Origin: a virus
Direction: 5' to 3' (one strand)
Length of the DNA: 21,302 bases
Virus record (IMG/VR): IMGVR_UViG_3300032156_000088
Location: 1-21,302 of that record
In this document: in pieces, positions 8,816 through 20,896 of the stretch
How positions within the stretch are numbered: position 1 is the first letter of the stretch
How the letters are laid out: every line of letters starts with the position of its first letter
The notes under the pieces: generated by a model
What the model saw: the letters and a program-made list of their open reading frames with translations, nothing else
What the model was told of the DNA's origin: nothing
The model's database searches: none
Position numbers and translations under genes: made by a program

Positions 8816-9055
8816 ATGGAACGTATCGATTATCCCCGTTGGCTGCATCATCAGACACTAGATCCAGTCATTGCACGTAACGCGGAAGATGGCGCTAGGT
8901 TGTTCACTCTGGGGTATGATCTTCAGCCGCCACCTTACGTGCCACCTGGATTTGAACCAGCGCCTTACGTGCCACCTGGATTTGAACCAGCGGCTGAGGT
9001 CTTCACCCAGGTAGTCGAAACCGGCAAGAACAAACCAGGGCGGCCCCGAAGGTGA
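8816..9055 (+). CDS. Small proline-rich hypothetical protein with tandem decapeptide, 79 aa
   Basis: ATG 8816 is preceded by AAAGGTGA (8805-8812). The first 38 residues are mixed (ERIDYPRWLHHQTLDPVIAR). Residues 40-59 are two perfect copies of PYVPPGFEPA, encoded by a perfect 30-bp tandem repeat. The C-terminus is basic (KNKPGRPRR), resembling an AT-hook core (G-R-P) but lacking the preceding Arg. No family is recognised. Its position between coat and gp4-like genes suggests a minor head or neck protein, or a small DNA- or protein-binding factor. The stop is 4 nt before the next ATG, and the next gene's ribosome binding site lies inside the last codons. Confidence 0.7.
   Translation: MERIDYPRWLHHQTLDPVIARNAEDGARLFTLGYDLQPPPYVPPGFEPAPYVPPGFEPAAEVFTQVVETGKNKPGRPRR
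8933..8992 (+). repeat. Perfect 30-bp tandem duplication
   Basis: The 30 bases at 8933-8962 (starting CCTTACGTGCCACCTGG) are repeated without a mismatch at 8963-8992. The unit is in frame and encodes the decapeptide PYVPPGFEPA twice. Zero divergence at silent positions points to a very recent duplication. Confidence 0.95.
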
Positions 9056-9790: not shown

Positions 9791-11224
9791 GTGAGATTCC
9801 CCGGTTTCATCGGAGCGGCCTATACCACGCGGTCCCTAAGTGTGGACTGCCAGCGATGCGTAGGGCTATTCCCTGAGATCAACGAGGCTAAAACCGCTCC
9901 GAATGGCGAGATTGGCTCTCTAATGTCCACCCCTGGCCTGCGGCGGCTGGCTACCGTGGGCACTGGTCCCATTCGCGGCTTGCTGCGGGTGGCAATCTCC
10001 GGAAACCTCGCCGTGGTGAGCGGGAACAAACTCTATTCCGTGGATTCTTCATGGGTTGCGACCGAAAAGGGAACCCTGCAGACCAGCACCGGCCCGGTGG
10101 ACATGACATCTAACCTCTATCAGCTTGGGATAGTTGACGGTGCACTCGGCTATGTCTACGATTCAACGCAGAAGATTCCATTCTTTGTAGTCCCTGGGTT
10201 CCCCGCTGCGGATCGCATCGACTTCCTAGACTCCTACGTCCTTTTCAACATCAAAGGCACGGGAAGCTTCGGGTTCTCCGCGTTGAATGATATTTCCTCT
10301 GTTGACCCACTCGACTATCAGACTGTAGAAGGATCTCCTGATAACCTTGTCGGATTGGTGGTATCCAACAGGCAGGTGTGGTGTCCTGGGACGGATTCCA
10401 TGGAAGTTTTCATCAACGTGGGCGATCCGGTGAATCCTTTCCAGCGGATTCCCGGCGCGTTCATTGAGTTCGGCTGTGATTCGTCTTTCTCAATCCAGAA
10501 GATCGGGAACTCAATCATCTGGGTTGGAGGCGGGGCCAATGGCGCTGGGACGGTGTGGCGAGCGGAAGGCTACCAACCTACCCGGATCTCAACTCACGCC
10601 ATTGAGTTAGCGCTACAATCGTCCGGCGATCTGTCCAATGCCAGGGCGTGGACGTATCAGCAGGACGGCCATCAATTCTATGCGATCACCGTGCCTGGCC
10701 AGAATACGTCCTGGTTCTATGACCTGGCTACTGGGCTCTGGCACGAGCGGATCAATTTCAAGGCCGGGGCAGAACTTCGGTACCGTGGCGATTGTCACGC
10801 CTTCGTCTACGACACTCACGTAGTAGGCGACTATGAGGATGGACGAATCTACGCCCTGGACTTTGACAAGTTCACCGATGACGGAGACGTGATCATTCGT
10901 GAACGCACGAGTCCTCATCTGGGCGATGATGGCAAGCGCATCTTCTGGGATTACATGCAGATTGAAGCCAGGGTAGGAGTCGGCCTTGACGGGACAACCC
11001 AAGGCGTTGACCCCCAGATCATGATGCAATGGTCGAATGACGCCGGGTACACCTGGACGCCGGAGCGATGGACTACTCTCGGGAAGATCGGGCAATACCT
11101 GGCTAGGGCTATCTGGAGGCGCATGGGGTTCAGCCGGTATCGTGTTGTCCGGGTGCGGTATAGCGAGCCAACACAGCTTGTCTTGCTAGGCGCAAGCATC
11201 AACCTGCGGCCAGGGGTGAACTGA
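9791..11224 (+). CDS. P22 gp10-like packaged-DNA stabilisation (tail hub) protein
   Basis: The 477-residue protein is close to P22 gp10 (472). In P22, gp10 joins the gp4 ring, helps seal the packaged DNA and carries the needle and tailspikes. Family features include the N-terminal CQRCVGLFPEINE, with STPGLRRLATVGTGPIRGLL (about 45-65). Short blade-like repeats of a beta-propeller type follow (LAVVSGNKLYSVDS, RIDFLDSYVLFN, VVSNRQVWCPGTDSMEVF). IGNSIIWVG and WFYDLATGLWHER (from about 308) come next, then a C-terminal beta domain (MMQWSNDAGYTWTPERW). The start is GTG 9791, with AGGA (9778-9781) upstream at a longer distance of 9 nt. The stop overlaps the next start (TGATG). Confidence 0.92.
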   Translation: MRFPGFIGAAYTTRSLSVDCQRCVGLFPEINEAKTAPNGEIGSLMSTPGLRRLATVGTGPIRGLLRVAISGNLAVVSGNKLYSVDSSWVATEKGTLQTSTGPVDMTSNLYQLGIVDGALGYVYDSTQKIPFFVVPGFPAADRIDFLDSYVLFNIKGTGSFGFSALNDISSVDPLDYQTVEGSPDNLVGLVVSNRQVWCPGTDSMEVFINVGDPVNPFQRIPGAFIEFGCDSSFSIQKIGNSIIWVGGGANGAGTVWRAEGYQPTRISTHAIELALQSSGDLSNARAWTYQQDGHQFYAITVPGQNTSWFYDLATGLWHERINFKAGAELRYRGDCHAFVYDTHVVGDYEDGRIYALDFDKFTDDGDVIIRERTSPHLGDDGKRIFWDYMQIEARVGVGLDGTTQGVDPQIMMQWSNDAGYTWTPERWTTLGKIGQYLARAIWRRMGFSRYRVVRVRYSEPTQLVLLGASINLRPGVN

Positions 11225-13467
11225 TGTCTGCCACGCCATCCAGAACACCGTTACCGGCCCCTATCATCGGGCAGCCCTTGGATAGCAGGGGCTGGTTTAC
11301 CGCGCCATGGGCGCAATGGTTCTCCCAGACGGTGTTTCAGAATATCTCTAACGCTCAACCCAGCAATGCACTACCACTTGTGACTACCGTGCTGGGCGCG
11401 GTTGGTGCCGGCGTATTCTATGCCAGAGAAGATCACCAGCATCCCTCACAGCAGCACAACGACATGCCCGGCAGGGATGCCGCTGGTGTCCATCCAGCGT
11501 CTTCCATCACCAATACACCTTCTGGCGGCATTTCCGCGCTCACCGTACAAGCCGCGTTGAATGAACTGGACGGGGGGAAGCAAAATCCAGATGTGGTCAT
11601 CGAAGTAAACGATTCGAACTACACAATCACCACTGGCACCAATGTTCTGATAGCGATTACGGCGATTACGGCCCCAAGGACAGTCCGCCTCCCGCCGGCC
11701 ACACAAAAAGGCCAGGCGATATCAGGGATGGATTGGAGCGGGGATTGTAGCGGCACAAATTATGTAACTGTTCTCGCCGATGGGACAGACAGGATCGAGA
11801 ATCTTGTCTTTGCGAGGTTGGGGTTTCCGTACTTCTCCGTGAAAGTGGTGAGCAACGGCGCTGGTCTATGGACGCTGGTTTACACAAATTTAATCAACCT
11901 CGGTGTTGGCTGCGTAGTGGAACCGACATTGACGGATCTCGGCACTGGGTCCGTAACGATCGGCAGCGGCGCATACAATCTTTTTTCAAACGCCGATGGA
12001 GAGGGCAAAATAAGAACCTACGCGATCCTTGGCGGGACTTTCGCGCTCACTGACCAGGTCAATAACTACGTGGTGGCTGATTACAACAGCGGTTCACCAT
12101 GTGTCCAGGTCATAACAAACGTGAATCTCATCAACGAGACTACGGTAGCGCCTATTTACACGGTATTCCGGAACGGGACGTCCGTTCAGTATCTCGATTG
12201 GGACCATCTCGGCTTGGCGCTCCCAAACAAAATTCACCAATCCATTGTGAAAACCCAGCGGTTCCGGCTGCAACCACCAGGGTTAGGTTTATCTGAGGCC
12301 GCAACTAGAAAGATTCTAGTGTCTTCAGGAACAGTATGGTACGGCGCATCGAAGCAAGTGTGCGCCGCAGTGGACTCATCTATTGACTCTGCTGTGTTGT
12401 ATTACCATGTTGCGGGAGTGTGGACGGCAACAGCCATTACGACTTACGACAATACTCAATACGATGATGGAACCACATTGCAGACACTCACTGCGAATAG
12501 ATACGCGGTGAATTTTGTGTATCGGCTGGTTAGTTCGATTCAAAAGAGGATTGTTACAGTTCTGGGAACCGGTGATTACAAGCTGGATGAAGCCCTCGCG
12601 GCCCAGCCTCCGGGCAACCTCCCACCGGAGATCACTTCCCAATGTATCCTGGTCGGTCGAATCATCGTTCTCAAAAGCGCAACAACAGCGACAAAGATAG
12701 ATTCAGCACTGGCAACGCAATTTTCATCAGCCGGGGTAACAGACCATAGCGGTCTATCAGGACTCCAGGGTGGTGCAACAGCAGAATACTACCACCTTAC
12801 GTTAGCACAGCATACAATAGCGACTCAACCCGCGTCGGCGTCAGTATCTGGATATGCAGATACTTCAACCCAAACATTTGCAGGCGCAAAGACATTTACA
12901 GGCATAACATCGTTAACAAATGTAGCAAACAATTTTGGATCTAATACGGGCACTGGAACAACGTCAGTGGGTATAAACTCTGCCGCAGGAAATTATCGAT
13001 TGGTGTATTTCAAAAGCGGCGGACTGATTAGATGGGGGGTAGGCGCTAGTGGCGATGCTGAGTCCGGATCTGATGCTGGTTCTGCTTTGCATATACGGGC
13101 ATATACGGATGCAGGAGCGTTTATAGATACCCCGATTGTGATAAATAGAGTTGCGGGAGGCGCGATAACTGTTTACAGGCCCGTCACGATGAATGATGGG
13201 GTGGACTTCGCGTTTGGGGCCACAACTGGGACCAAGATTGGGACGGGCGCAACGCAAAAGATAGGCGTTTGGGGCGCAACCCCCATTGTTAGGCCAACGG
13301 CCCTGACCGCCACGGCCACAACGGCCCCGGCAGGGGGCACGGGCGCTACGGCTGGCGCATACGATACAGCGGCTCACCGGGACACGATGATTGCTTGCGT
13401 CCAGAACACAAAGACGCGGCTTGACGAACTGGAAACAAAGCTGAAGGCTCTGGGAATGTTACCGTAG
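11224..13467 (+). CDS. Tail fibre / receptor-binding structural protein, 747 aa
   Basis: The N-terminus (residues 9-40, PLPAPIIGQPLDSRGWFTAP, then WAQWFSQTVFQ) resembles the virion-attachment segment of many short-tail fibres. Residues 66-120 hold fibre motifs (YAREDHQHP, GVHPASSI, TVQAALNELDGGKQ). A long beta-rich shaft follows, with a HSGLSGLQGGATAEYYHLT motif near 507, as in collar-type fibre repeats. A C-terminal module with GTKIGTGATQKIGVWGATP (about 671-690) ends in a coiled coil (about 712-747, ENTKTRLDELETKLKALG-like heptads), probably trimeric. The gene follows the gp10-like gene directly, where P22 carries the gp26 needle, so it may occupy the tail tip. GC falls toward the 3' half (40% in the line at 12841, 62% at 11221). 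Confidence 0.85.
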   Translation: MSATPSRTPLPAPIIGQPLDSRGWFTAPWAQWFSQTVFQNISNAQPSNALPLVTTVLGAVGAGVFYAREDHQHPSQQHNDMPGRDAAGVHPASSITNTPSGGISALTVQAALNELDGGKQNPDVVIEVNDSNYTITTGTNVLIAITAITAPRTVRLPPATQKGQAISGMDWSGDCSGTNYVTVLADGTDRIENLVFARLGFPYFSVKVVSNGAGLWTLVYTNLINLGVGCVVEPTLTDLGTGSVTIGSGAYNLFSNADGEGKIRTYAILGGTFALTDQVNNYVVADYNSGSPCVQVITNVNLINETTVAPIYTVFRNGTSVQYLDWDHLGLALPNKIHQSIVKTQRFRLQPPGLGLSEAATRKILVSSGTVWYGASKQVCAAVDSSIDSAVLYYHVAGVWTATAITTYDNTQYDDGTTLQTLTANRYAVNFVYRLVSSIQKRIVTVLGTGDYKLDEALAAQPPGNLPPEITSQCILVGRIIVLKSATTATKIDSALATQFSSAGVTDHSGLSGLQGGATAEYYHLTLAQHTIATQPASASVSGYADTSTQTFAGAKTFTGITSLTNVANNFGSNTGTGTTSVGINSAAGNYRLVYFKSGGLIRWGVGASGDAESGSDAGSALHIRAYTDAGAFIDTPIVINRVAGGAITVYRPVTMNDGVDFAFGATTGTKIGTGATQKIGVWGATPIVRPTALTATATTAPAGGTGATAGAYDTAAHRDTMIACVQNTKTRLDELETKLKALGMLP

Positions 13468-16218: not shown

Positions 16219-18371
16219 TGGCAAACACTCCTCCTCCTCCTCCTGGGTTCAAACTGGACACCGATATCCCTCCTCCACCGGCTGGGTTCACGATGGATGC
16301 GCCCAAAGAGCAGGCCAAGCCCAAGCTTTGGGATTCCAAGTCCTCCGACGATGACATCATCAAGGCCCTTGGGTATGATCCCGCCGTTCTGAAGAAGTCC
16401 AAATTCTACTCGGATGGCATGTTTTCCAGGATCACCACTGATCCAGGAACGACCGTATCCAAGGAGACTTCTGGGCCTCTGTTCTCTGCTATCAAGGGAG
16501 CCGCCAACGTAGGGATGGGTTTTGACCAGATTGTAAGGCGTGGGTGGAAACTCGCGGGCGTTCTATCTGATGCCGATGTTCAGATGGTCGATGCGAACAA
16601 GAAGTTCGTAGACCTTGAATACGAGCGATCCCATACCCAACTCGGGAACAAAAAGGCTACAGGACTAGCCAAAGGCATTCTGAATGCATCTGAATTTGTT
16701 GGAGAATCGCTTCCGACCTTGTTTCCAGGCGGTCCCACTCTTTCAGGGGTAAAGTTGCTCTCAGGGCAAGGTGTTAAGCAACTCGGGAAGATTGCCGCAG
16801 TAGGCGCAGGAACGGCCCTAACTCAGCCTGTGACTGTTGATCCGAATGATCCCTATTCCTACCTCAAGGCGAAGGCGAAACAGGTCGTTGCGAGCGTGTT
16901 TATGGCTCCAGCGGCTCAACTCGGTATCGAAAGGGGCGCCGTGCCTGCTGCGAAGTTCCTGGCTAAGAACAATCTATTAGCACGTATCTTTGGCAATAAG
17001 GCAGCGCGGGAAGCCGCCATAGAACGGGTCGAAGCCATAAGGACATCAACCCAAAGCCCTTCCTATCCCCAAGGCGCAGAGCCTAGCCTTGGTGAAGCCT
17101 TGCAGAATCCAGGGCTGAATGCTTTGGAAAACAAGGCTGAATACATTCCATTTTCTGGCAGAAGGGCGCAACTCGAAAAGGGGAATAAGGCGCTTTACGA
17201 GAAATTGAAGTCAATGGCGGATCAAGAAAAGCCAGGATTAGGCATCGCCGGGGCTGGACCTGAGATTGCAGAGTCGGCAAGCGGCAAACTGGCAAGCGCT
17301 AAGGCTGAGTTCAAAGAGCCTTACGGATTCGTCCGGGATGTTGTGGGCGATACTCCACCTGTCAGAACGTCAACGCTCAAGGCTTTTGATGACGCCATCA
17401 CTAAGGAAATTGGGATCAGCGGTAAGAACAGCCCCGAAGTGAAGGCCCTATCCTTGGCAAGAGATAACTTCTCCAAGGGTGAAACTGGACGAAACTTCGC
17501 TGATATGGAGGCCATTCAAGACAGGCTCCAATACGATGCCGCACATAGCTCGACAAGTCCCGACCCAGGACAGAAGGCTCTAGGCCGATATGCCAGAGAC
17601 ATTAGCAGAGGAGTCGGCGAGGACATGCATGCCACGATAGCACTCGCAGACCCTACCGGCTTCGCTTCTGATATCTACAGGTCAACAAATAAATCCTACG
17701 GGTCGAAGGTCCGAAGATTCGACCCCAACCAAGCCGCAGGCCCAGAATCAACCAAAAAGGCGGCGCAAACATTCGTAGCGCCGGAAGGTTTCGAGGGGAC
17801 CATCCCAGACAAGCTCTTCGCTAGGGATAACCCGGAAATGGCTAAATATGCCAGGGAAGCACTTGATGAGCGCGGGGCTAAGGCTGTGAGGGCTGAGATC
17901 ATGCGCAGGGCATTGGACGCTGGAGAAGATTCCAAGATATTCAGCCCGAACAAGGCCGCAAACGTCCTAGACAAGCACGAAAACTTCATCAAAGAATTTT
18001 TCAACCCACAAGAGGCTAAGCAGATCGAAGGGTTCAAGAATGCGCTTCGGGATATGCAGCGGAGCGGGCAATACCTAGAGCAAGTGACAACAGGGAAGTT
18101 TGCAGAACAGGCGAAGAGTATGACGGCCCCGTTGACAGCCGTAGGTGCTGCCATAGCTACTAAAAGCGTTATCCCGCTTGTTATCGGTGCTGGCGGCATG
18201 ACGGCTGCAAAACTGTACACGAAGCTATCAGGAACCAAGGCCGGGAAAGAATGGCTTCTCGGGATGGCAAAGACTAAGCCTAATTCTTTGCTAATGAAAA
18301 CTCTTATGAATCAACTCCCAAAGATTGTCGGGACCAAAGCAGGCGAAGAACCAACCCAGGAGCAAAAATGA
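16218..18371 (+). CDS. Ejection (internal virion) protein, P22 gp16-like position
   Basis: The start is set at ATG 16218, overlapping the upstream TGA as TGATG and preceded by GGTGAAG. An in-frame ATG at 16185 would lie deep in the upstream gene and has no site. The 717-residue protein begins with five consecutive prolines and a repeated motif (PPPPPGF at 5-11, PPPPAGF at 18-24). Hydrophobic stretches follow at about 150-200 (LFPGGPTLSGVKLLSG, IAAVGAGTALTQPV) and near the end at about 637-668 (APLTAVGAAIATKSVIPLVI). Such late hydrophobic segments suit a protein that inserts into the host membrane during DNA entry. Length and order parallel P22 gp16 (609 aa). No enzyme motif is seen. The 3' end overlaps the tailspike start by ATGA. 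Confidence 0.75.
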   Translation: MANTPPPPPGFKLDTDIPPPPAGFTMDAPKEQAKPKLWDSKSSDDDIIKALGYDPAVLKKSKFYSDGMFSRITTDPGTTVSKETSGPLFSAIKGAANVGMGFDQIVRRGWKLAGVLSDADVQMVDANKKFVDLEYERSHTQLGNKKATGLAKGILNASEFVGESLPTLFPGGPTLSGVKLLSGQGVKQLGKIAAVGAGTALTQPVTVDPNDPYSYLKAKAKQVVASVFMAPAAQLGIERGAVPAAKFLAKNNLLARIFGNKAAREAAIERVEAIRTSTQSPSYPQGAEPSLGEALQNPGLNALENKAEYIPFSGRRAQLEKGNKALYEKLKSMADQEKPGLGIAGAGPEIAESASGKLASAKAEFKEPYGFVRDVVGDTPPVRTSTLKAFDDAITKEIGISGKNSPEVKALSLARDNFSKGETGRNFADMEAIQDRLQYDAAHSSTSPDPGQKALGRYARDISRGVGEDMHATIALADPTGFASDIYRSTNKSYGSKVRRFDPNQAAGPESTKKAAQTFVAPEGFEGTIPDKLFARDNPEMAKYAREALDERGAKAVRAEIMRRALDAGEDSKIFSPNKAANVLDKHENFIKEFFNPQEAKQIEGFKNALRDMQRSGQYLEQVTTGKFAEQAKSMTAPLTAVGAAIATKSVIPLVIGAGGMTAAKLYTKLSGTKAGKEWLLGMAKTKPNSLLMKTLMNQLPKIVGTKAGEEPTQEQK
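16230..16244 (+). repeat. CCT x5 trinucleotide repeat (five prolines)
   Basis: Codons 5-9 of the gp16-position gene are five identical CCT codons. The run is prone to replication slippage, and a Pro5 stretch at the start of a coding sequence is a known ribosome-stalling, EF-P-dependent context. Confidence 0.9.
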
Positions 18372-20230
18372 GCGCTATGCCCTTCAGTTTTCCCGTATTC
18401 AAGGCGTTCACCCAGACGGGCACATTGGCCCCGCTGGTAGGCGGCAAGCTCTACGCCTTCGCCGCAGGGACTTCCACGCCTCTTGCAACCTACTCTGACG
18501 CCGCATTGACCACCCCGAATGCCCATCCTGTAGTTCTGGACGCGAACGGGGAAGCGATCATCTATCTTGGTGCAGCACCATACAAGATGCGTCTGGAAAA
18601 TTCGGCCTCGGTGGTGCAGACCGGGTGGCCGATTGACAACATCCAGAGTAGCGTGGCCATCTCGGCGCTCTACACTGATGCTCTCCGATCCGATCTTGCC
18701 GATGCTTCTGACATCGACAATGGAGACGCCAAGATCGCAGTCGAACAGCCTTTCACGGGCGCGGTTGCCAGGACGCAGCACGACAAGAACAAGGAATGCA
18801 TCAGTGTCCTTGATTTTGGCGCTGATCCTACAGGCGTAGCTGATAGTACCGTATATTTCCAGGCAGCAAGTGATTCCATTACCACGCCTGGGAGTCTTCT
18901 GATCCCAGCTGGGACCTATAAAGTGCAAGGATGGATCATCACAAATTCCGACCTTAATATCATATGCCATGGGTCTCTAATCCCAGCCGCAAATACCACT
19001 ACTCCAGTTGTACAACTTGGGACTGATGCTATCGTATGCTTTCGCGTCACAGGCAATTTATCTACCACTAGTGGTGGATTATGGTCCACCTGGACTAATG
19101 CTATCGGTATCAGTTTTAAGGGACTGGTTGAAGCCAATCTATTGTTGAACGTGAACGGGTTCAATGTTGGGCTAGATTTCTGCCCAGCAGCAACGGCTGT
19201 GGCATATAACAGCTTTTACCTTCAGCGGGTATATAATAATGCCACTGGCATCTATATGCGCCCAACGTCAACGGGCTACACAAACGAAATGCACTTTTTT
19301 GGTGGCAGGTTCGCTCATACGGGGACCACAAATCTCGCGTCTTTGACACACATTAATCATGAGTCTGAAGGCGCAAATATTGTAAACAACATCCATTATT
19401 ATTGCCCGTGTTTTGAGGGCGGCGCCAAAATGATAAACTGGGACTCCATTTTTTGCTCAGTGCGGCAAGCGCGAGGGGAAATCTATAAAGCTGGGACACA
19501 AGCGGTAGATTATGCGCAGCCATATATCGATTTTCATTCACGGTCAAAAAATAATATAATTGAATTTGGATATATCAGCGCCATGCAAACCGCAGGAGGC
19601 GGAATGGGCGTTGACTTGGGAGTAGCCACTAGGGTAAATAATTATAGCGCAACAGTCTCTGGGAATCAAACATTATACTGCTATCCTGGAGCGCTGGTAC
19701 ATATAACGGTCGGGGGCGTGACCTTTGCATCCGTTATCACTAGCTCAGCCTATGGAGCTCCCTCTACTACTATCAGGATAACGGACCCAATTATCACGGG
19801 TAATAGCACCGCCACCGTGGTTCCAAGTGTAGTGAACAGTGCGAATTGGCCTGGGAACAGTGTTCGATTCACCCGGTTACAAATCCCAGGAGAGAATGTT
19901 TATACCTTTTATAAAGACGAAAGACGGACATACTCAAGATCATCCATTACTATCAGCAACATGGATTCGCATAGTCCAGCTCTCGTATTGGTGCCAGGGG
20001 GAGCAGGCGCAGAGGATGTTTTACGAGTAATAGAATTTGATAGTTTATCCGCAAATCTTACTGGGACTGGGCAACTATACCTAAAAGACAAGTTGCTAAC
20101 GACTGGGGGCATCGGTGTTGGCAATTCTGCGGCAGGAACTACCCCCAGCGGCTGTGTCAAAAAAATCCAGGTATTCGATGCAGCCGGGGCGTCACTTGGA
20201 TATCTTGCTGTCTATTCGGCGATCACCTGA
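18368..20230 (+). CDS. Tailspike with beta-helix (pectate-lyase-like) domain
   Basis: The 620-residue protein overlaps the upstream stop (ATGA at 18368-18371). Residues about 6-92 form a conserved virion-attachment domain (VGGKLYAFAAGTSTPLATYS, NAHPVVLDANGEA, PYKMRLEN, WPIDNI). A short linker leads to ISVLDFGADPTGVADST (145-161), the entry motif of pectate-lyase-superfamily beta-helices. Many short beta turns rich in Asn, Gly and Thr follow to about residue 590. The C-terminus, KKIQVFDAAGASLGYLAVYS, is a motif I recall from fibre and spike ends. It is probably trimeric, binding and possibly cleaving a surface polysaccharide; catalytic residues cannot be named. Base composition changes sharply inside the gene: 68% GC in the line at 18421, 33% at 19501. 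Confidence 0.88.
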   Translation: MSAMPFSFPVFKAFTQTGTLAPLVGGKLYAFAAGTSTPLATYSDAALTTPNAHPVVLDANGEAIIYLGAAPYKMRLENSASVVQTGWPIDNIQSSVAISALYTDALRSDLADASDIDNGDAKIAVEQPFTGAVARTQHDKNKECISVLDFGADPTGVADSTVYFQAASDSITTPGSLLIPAGTYKVQGWIITNSDLNIICHGSLIPAANTTTPVVQLGTDAIVCFRVTGNLSTTSGGLWSTWTNAIGISFKGLVEANLLLNVNGFNVGLDFCPAATAVAYNSFYLQRVYNNATGIYMRPTSTGYTNEMHFFGGRFAHTGTTNLASLTHINHESEGANIVNNIHYYCPCFEGGAKMINWDSIFCSVRQARGEIYKAGTQAVDYAQPYIDFHSRSKNNIIEFGYISAMQTAGGGMGVDLGVATRVNNYSATVSGNQTLYCYPGALVHITVGGVTFASVITSSAYGAPSTTIRITDPIITGNSTATVVPSVVNSANWPGNSVRFTRLQIPGENVYTFYKDERRTYSRSSITISNMDSHSPALVLVPGGAGAEDVLRVIEFDSLSANLTGTGQLYLKDKLLTTGGIGVGNSAAGTTPSGCVKKIQVFDAAGASLGYLAVYSAIT

Positions 20231-20329: not shown

Positions 20330-20896
20330 TTATGAAGGTTCGCCCAATTCAAAGTTAGGTTTCATGAACGCACACCAATGCGTCTTTTGCGCTTTCCCAG
20401 ACGGATGCCCGAAAAGCGGCATGTATGGAGCGCATTTCACGATTTCCTTGAGCGGCACGTCGCATTCGTTCCATTTGAAAATCAACACACCACCAGCCTT
20501 CAAAACTCGGAAGCACTCAGAGAATCCACGGCTCAAATCGTCGCGCCATGTCTCTTTGTCGAGTCTCCCGTAGGATTGCGCCATGAAGCTGTTTTCCCCA
20601 AGGAACAAATGCGGCGGGTCAAACACCACCATCTGGAAAGTCTCGTCTGGATATTCCATGTCTCGGAAGTCATGGACTCGGTCGGGAAGGCATTTCCTGA
20701 TCCGGGCATCCTTTCCGCTGCCAACAACCTTTGGCGGCATCACGCGACAGTCGGCGAAAAGCACGTTCGGATTTTCCTTATCAAACCAGAATTGTCGGCC
20801 ACCGCAGCAGGCATCCAACACCGGCGGGAAACCTAACCTGGCGGTCAAGTCGGACGTGCCGCAAGCGGCTCCTTCAAACGGTTGTGCTTGTTCCAT
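20330..20896 (-). CDS. SAM-dependent methyltransferase (putative DNA N6-adenine / N4-cytosine type)
   Basis: The 188-residue protein has a class I methyltransferase core. Motif I is at VLDACCGGR (26-34), an acidic second strand lies at VLFADCR (45-51), and motif IV is FDPPH (92-96). It is followed by FSECFRVLKAGGVLIFKWNE (125-144), typical of the strands after motif IV. DPP plus an aromatic residue is the signature of amino-methylating DNA enzymes; here the fourth position is His. Motif I precedes IV, as in alpha and gamma orders. No separate target-recognition domain is visible. The ATG at 20896 is preceded by AAAAGGAGAG (complement 20903-20912) at 6 nt, and the gene overlaps its upstream neighbour by 23 nt. 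Protection of phage DNA from host restriction is a reasonable inference; an RNA or small-molecule target is not excluded. Confidence 0.85.
   Translation of the reverse strand: MEQAQPFEGAACGTSDLTARLGFPPVLDACCGGRQFWFDKENPNVLFADCRVMPPKVVGSGKDARIRKCLPDRVHDFRDMEYPDETFQMVVFDPPHLFLGENSFMAQSYGRLDKETWRDDLSRGFSECFRVLKAGGVLIFKWNECDVPLKEIVKCAPYMPLFGHPSGKAQKTHWCAFMKPNFELGEPS

Follow-up and report, generated by a model that had tools for sequence, protein, structure and literature searches.

Receptor-binding proteins of Klebsiella phages consist of a conserved N-terminal anchor and an exchanged specificity part (PMC8262889), and the exchange of tailspike recognition parts is already well documented. At the opposite end of such proteins, the tailspike of phage K1F and the tail fibre of T5 carry C-terminal intramolecular chaperones that have an alpha-helical core and are self-cleaving (PMC10579305).

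The window, by which we mean the whole stretch of DNA analysed here, is a virus record of 21.3 kb that carries a P22-like portal and coat protein, a head-closure protein, and a DNA-ejection protein. Its tailspike gene (18368..20230 on the + strand, stop codon included) is an open reading frame for 620 amino acids with PHROG tail/tail spike matches, and it overlaps the gene before it at that gene's stop codon. We lean towards reading the product as a probably trimeric tailspike built by recombination from a head-binding domain, an Sf6-type neck, a foreign AT-rich beta-helix, and an exchangeable terminal module. In this arrangement the head-binding domain would anchor the spike to the podovirus tail, the neck would serve as a reused joint where the foreign beta-helix became attached, and the beta-helix would most likely bind or cut a host surface polysaccharide. 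The last ~40 residues, a short strand followed by a beta-hairpin, are in this reading an exchangeable module that closes many spikes and fibres of phages without being tied to one kind of body; its task is most likely to register or cap the three chains while the spike folds. Elsewhere in the window, the gene directly after the tailspike (20330-20896, - strand) has a weak methyltransferase-domain match just under the Pfam cut-off, and a small open reading frame of 79 amino acids at 8816-9055 contains a short proline-rich repeat, YVPPGFEPAPYVPPGFEPA.

Segments of the tailspike

By homology, the window tailspike divides into four segments. The head-binding (virion attachment) domain comprises residues about 1-100 (18368..18667, + strand) and is homologous to the N-termini of tail genes in L003, L005, L006, L008, L009, L011, L014, and L040; in all of these except L040, the match covers residues 4-100 and the likeness to the window tailspike was seen to end or weaken past this domain. 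Residues about 6-100 match the head-binding domains of the tailspikes in PDB 7eeq and 9vyg (E 4e-6), while residues 6-103 match Rhodoferax, Vibrio, Xanthomonas, and spring-water phages. The corresponding domain of Rhodoferax phage P26218 is 58.7% identical to the window's over 75 residues, and in this phage, as in 7eeq and 9vyg, everything past residue about 100 differs from the window. One phage can carry two tail genes in succession whose head-binding domains are related, as at L040 2533-6117 and L003 16940-18887.

The homology joint between the head-binding domain and the neck lies at residue about 100-113. The neck segment itself extends over residues about 105-194, and the Sf6-type neck with the first beta-helix turns, delimited by an Sf6 PDB match, tblastn, and pairwise alignments, over residues about 113-194 (18704..18949, + strand). 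The Sf6 tailspike (PDB 2vbe/7sg7) matches window residues 114-194 with an E of 4e-13, and with tblastn residues 113-222 match Sf6 and mostly phages of Escherichia, Klebsiella, Salmonella, and Erwinia. The neck starts at a different residue from one protein to another: 383 in EC1-UPM, 213 in a Klebsiella phage, 146 in phiEt88, and 129 in Sf6. The earlier note had divided the protein into three parts; its modular character stands, but the neck is a separate exchangeable piece that brings the segments to four.

A pectate-lyase-like beta-helix match covers residues 145-332 (18800..19363, + strand), where the tailspike scores above the curated cut-off of the PF12708 profile (39.8 bits vs a cut-off of 27). 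Beyond the neck, the AT-rich core at residues about 195-578 (18950..20101, + strand; GC3 0.43) gave no credible match in homology searches. No relative of the core emerged from a pattern scan, which detects close relatives only, and no relative was found that combines this core with another head-binding domain. The full-length structure prediction has a mean pLDDT of 37, too poor for a fold search, and is better only at residues about 145-200 and the C-terminal hairpin; a beta-helix past residue 332 is therefore not confirmed.

Base composition and exchange of the recognition part

A contrast in GC content had been the first sign of a mosaic gene. The two values quoted for it, 68% for the 60 bases from 18421 and 33% for the 60 bases from 19501, agree with our direct counts of 68.3% and 33.3%, both of which come from near-extreme windows; mean GC is 57.9% over residues 1-145 and 46.2% over residues 160-585. 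A change-point test places a step in GC3 at codon 145 (18803), with GC3 0.68 before it and 0.43 after it, and this step of 0.25 was matched by no permutation. Its 2-log-unit support interval covers codons 139-152 (about 18785-18824 in the window), and the flat-prior posterior is wider, at codons 102-157. The compositional switch proposed near 18840 is thus real as a step in GC3, but 18840 falls just beyond the support interval. Because codon positions 1 and 2 of the gene have no significant step (p 0.6), the change in composition is mainly synonymous. The step falls not at a homology edge but inside the segment that resembles Sf6, close to where the conserved neck motif ends, and this position fits recombination at the motif without proving it.

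Separate searches with the segments, a check put forward in the earlier note, returned differing sets of matches: environmental phages for residues 6-103, mainly enterobacterial phages for residues 113-222, and nothing credible for the core. In addition, the head-binding domain of the L040 spike is homologous to the window's (E 2e-9) and the last 39 residues are shared with it, while the middle has no significant similarity. Exchange of the recognition part in the window tailspike is supported at the sequence level because the segments have different match sets and L040 shares only both ends. The AT-rich core might instead reflect selection or relaxed codon use inside a single tailspike lineage with no exchange, a reading that gains from a similar low-GC3 stretch in another tail gene of the window, since such stretches could then be a property of receptor-binding regions. 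We consider this improbable, given that the step sits at synonymous positions, the segments match different phage groups, and L040 retains both ends with another middle.

Replacement of the core between two conserved ends, as originally suggested, is therefore supported as far as the exchange is concerned, but conservation of the C-terminal end is a matter of protein sequence and not of GC content. The supposed GC rise towards the C terminus was not borne out: GC3 is 0.49-0.52 there vs 0.43-0.44 in the core (p 0.22-0.37, not significant), and for total GC a nominal p of 0.03 is obtained only when the segment is made to start at codon 580. We rejected such a rise as a sign of a conserved end, as it is not significant and the GC3 of the module tracks that of its host gene.

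Other genes in the window also have internal changes of GC3. The tail gene at 11224-13467 has a sharper dip than the tailspike, the strongest in the window, at 12271-13171 (0.33-0.43, with flanks at 0.64). The dip contains a short GC-rich stretch, and protein matches to residues 126-564 cross its first edge in several phages. A third gene, at 1203-1856, has an upward step near 1608 (p 0.002) that takes GC3 from 0.57 to 0.83.

Occurrence and conservation of the C-terminal module

The last 42 residues of the tailspike (TGGIGVGNSAAGTTPSGCVKKIQVFDAAGASLGYLAVYSAIT; 20102..20227, + strand), with a predicted beta-hairpin, form a module common to 42 other IMG/VR proteins. Searches for it combined the 56 residues at the C terminus, a pattern at the DNA level, and profile alignments; the pattern-based scans undercount it. 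In each of the 43 distinct proteins found, the window's included, the module ends 0-2 residues from the stop; the one exception to this terminal position, L023, is a partial chance match. The module-bearing open frames range from 113 to 1118 codons, and their bodies, together with that of Pseudoalteromonas phage H103, fall into 18 groups without detectable mutual similarity, the largest being joined partly via a common beta-helix entry. Judging from neighbouring genes, copies occur in phages of both siphovirus type (tape measure) and podovirus type (portal or head-tail adaptor). The gene adjoining the module-bearing spike of L040 encodes a further spike whose head-binding domain is related but which has no module; the module is thus optional, a point against our reading. 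At L044 1106-1444, the module lies on a 113-codon frame that overlaps a 389-codon frame, which could represent a frameshift, an error in sequencing, or a small gene in its own right.

The module consensus is GLGVGNSAAATTPGxVxKKIEVFDAxGxSLGFxPVYxSIT. In a stop-anchored alignment, columns upstream of position -40 carry about 1 bit of information each, and from there to the C terminus the value climbs to 2-4 bits in most columns. Four positions do not vary in any of the 43 proteins. GC3 of the module ranges from 0.10 to 0.97, tracking the body of its own gene (rho 0.93) and its locus (rho 0.96), so that the protein sequence is what is conserved. Relative to the window copy, protein identity reaches 0.82. 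DNA identity to that copy is only 0.42-0.68, which led us to discard a recent transfer of DNA, or contamination of the assembly, as the origin of the module. Together these values indicate an old module that is maintained by selection acting on its protein sequence. The C-terminal end thus has a wide distribution of its own and is not something left over from a single ancestral tailspike.

Among 50,697 phage records searched with tblastn, the module was found only in phage H103, in divergent form, and doubtfully in Rhizobium phage RHph_N3_8. The latter, which measures 18 kb and has genes for a collar connector and for encapsidation, may hold a distant module at the end of a tail fiber protein (L126 1285-3120); the match, with a profile E of 0.08 and a tblastn E of 5e-3 to H103, is too weak to settle the point. 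In host genomes the module was present in 0 of 398 from one phylum, that of the Gilliamella contig, a search that included no positive control and so shows little. Pfam, PHROGs, NCBIfam, and PDB gave no convincing match. As candidate identities we rejected DUF7377 (best E 0.033, 7/38 members, below the cut-off), phrog_18569 (weak, best E 0.035, 7/38 members), and NHL-repeat (weak matches).

It is about an even call, in our judgement, whether the last 40 residues constitute a widespread and undescribed terminal folding or capping module that occurs on both podovirus and siphovirus backbones, probably in phages whose hosts differ greatly, and that escaped notice because hardly any isolated phage carries it. 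By "undescribed" we mean that a limited literature search found no published description.

Role of the module and comparison with known systems

The 57 C-terminal residues are predicted to fold as a short strand followed by a beta-hairpin with strands at 33-40 and 46-53; pLDDT is about 80 at the hairpin and the pTM of the monomer is 0.45 (moderate). Structure searches with the module gave best viral matches of E 0.17 and no solved counterpart. We infer that this hairpin, at the end of the chain, sets the register of the trimer or caps it. A role in assembly or capping fits better than a receptor tip because the module is terminal, independent of the body, and conserved across very different base compositions. 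A dedicated downstream chaperone was also considered and rejected, as no downstream family is common to >5 loci.

Many fibres bind receptors at their distal end, which is where the module lies, and each of the 13 module-bearing records tested, L040 included, has a single copy; the module might accordingly be a small adhesin that recognises a surface structure found on many kinds of bacteria, and not an assembly element. Receptor tips are usually variable, however, whereas the module is strongly conserved across loci with a GC of 0.32 to 0.68, and therefore presumably across very different hosts, and it follows beta-helix bodies that would carry the binding site themselves. A receptor-binding tip is for these reasons unlikely. 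Slightly less likely again is a short self-cleaved intramolecular chaperone that is absent from the mature spike. The terminal position, the independence from the body, and the C-terminal chaperones known in other tail fibres (PMC10579305) speak for it, but the module has only about 40 residues, is predicted as a strand and hairpin without a helical core, matches no known chaperone family, and gives no sign of cleavage in the data. If the capping role that we prefer is correct, a strictly terminal module, conserved as protein on many spikes and fibres that are otherwise unrelated, would represent a general assembly element open to in vitro tests. It would also flag those spike and fibre genes of uncultivated phages that go unannotated with the family libraries now in use.

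The tailspike of Shigella phage Sf6 (gp14; PDB 2vbe, 4urr, 7sg7) has the neck motif and beta-helix entry in common with the window protein, and these parts are homologous; its N-terminal domain, most of its core, and its C-terminus differ, with neither head-binding nor C-terminal domain homologous and the pairwise alignment spanning only residues 113-307 of the window protein. The tail fibers protein of phage H103 (AKA61186.1) has its divergent module at the exact C-terminus (HMM E 2.5e-7), where the match covers the hairpin part only and not the GVGN part, and no similarity of its body to the others was found. The chaperones of K1F and T5 resemble the module as terminal, body-independent ends of trimeric tail proteins and may be functional analogues. 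However, they are much longer, have an alpha-helical core, and cleave themselves, while the window module, of about 40 residues, has no convincing chaperone match in Pfam, NCBIfam, or PHROGs and lies in 57 residues predicted to be all-beta. With the Klebsiella phage receptor-binding proteins, the window tailspike shares the plan of an anchor and an exchanged part, to which it adds a neck and a shared C-terminal module.
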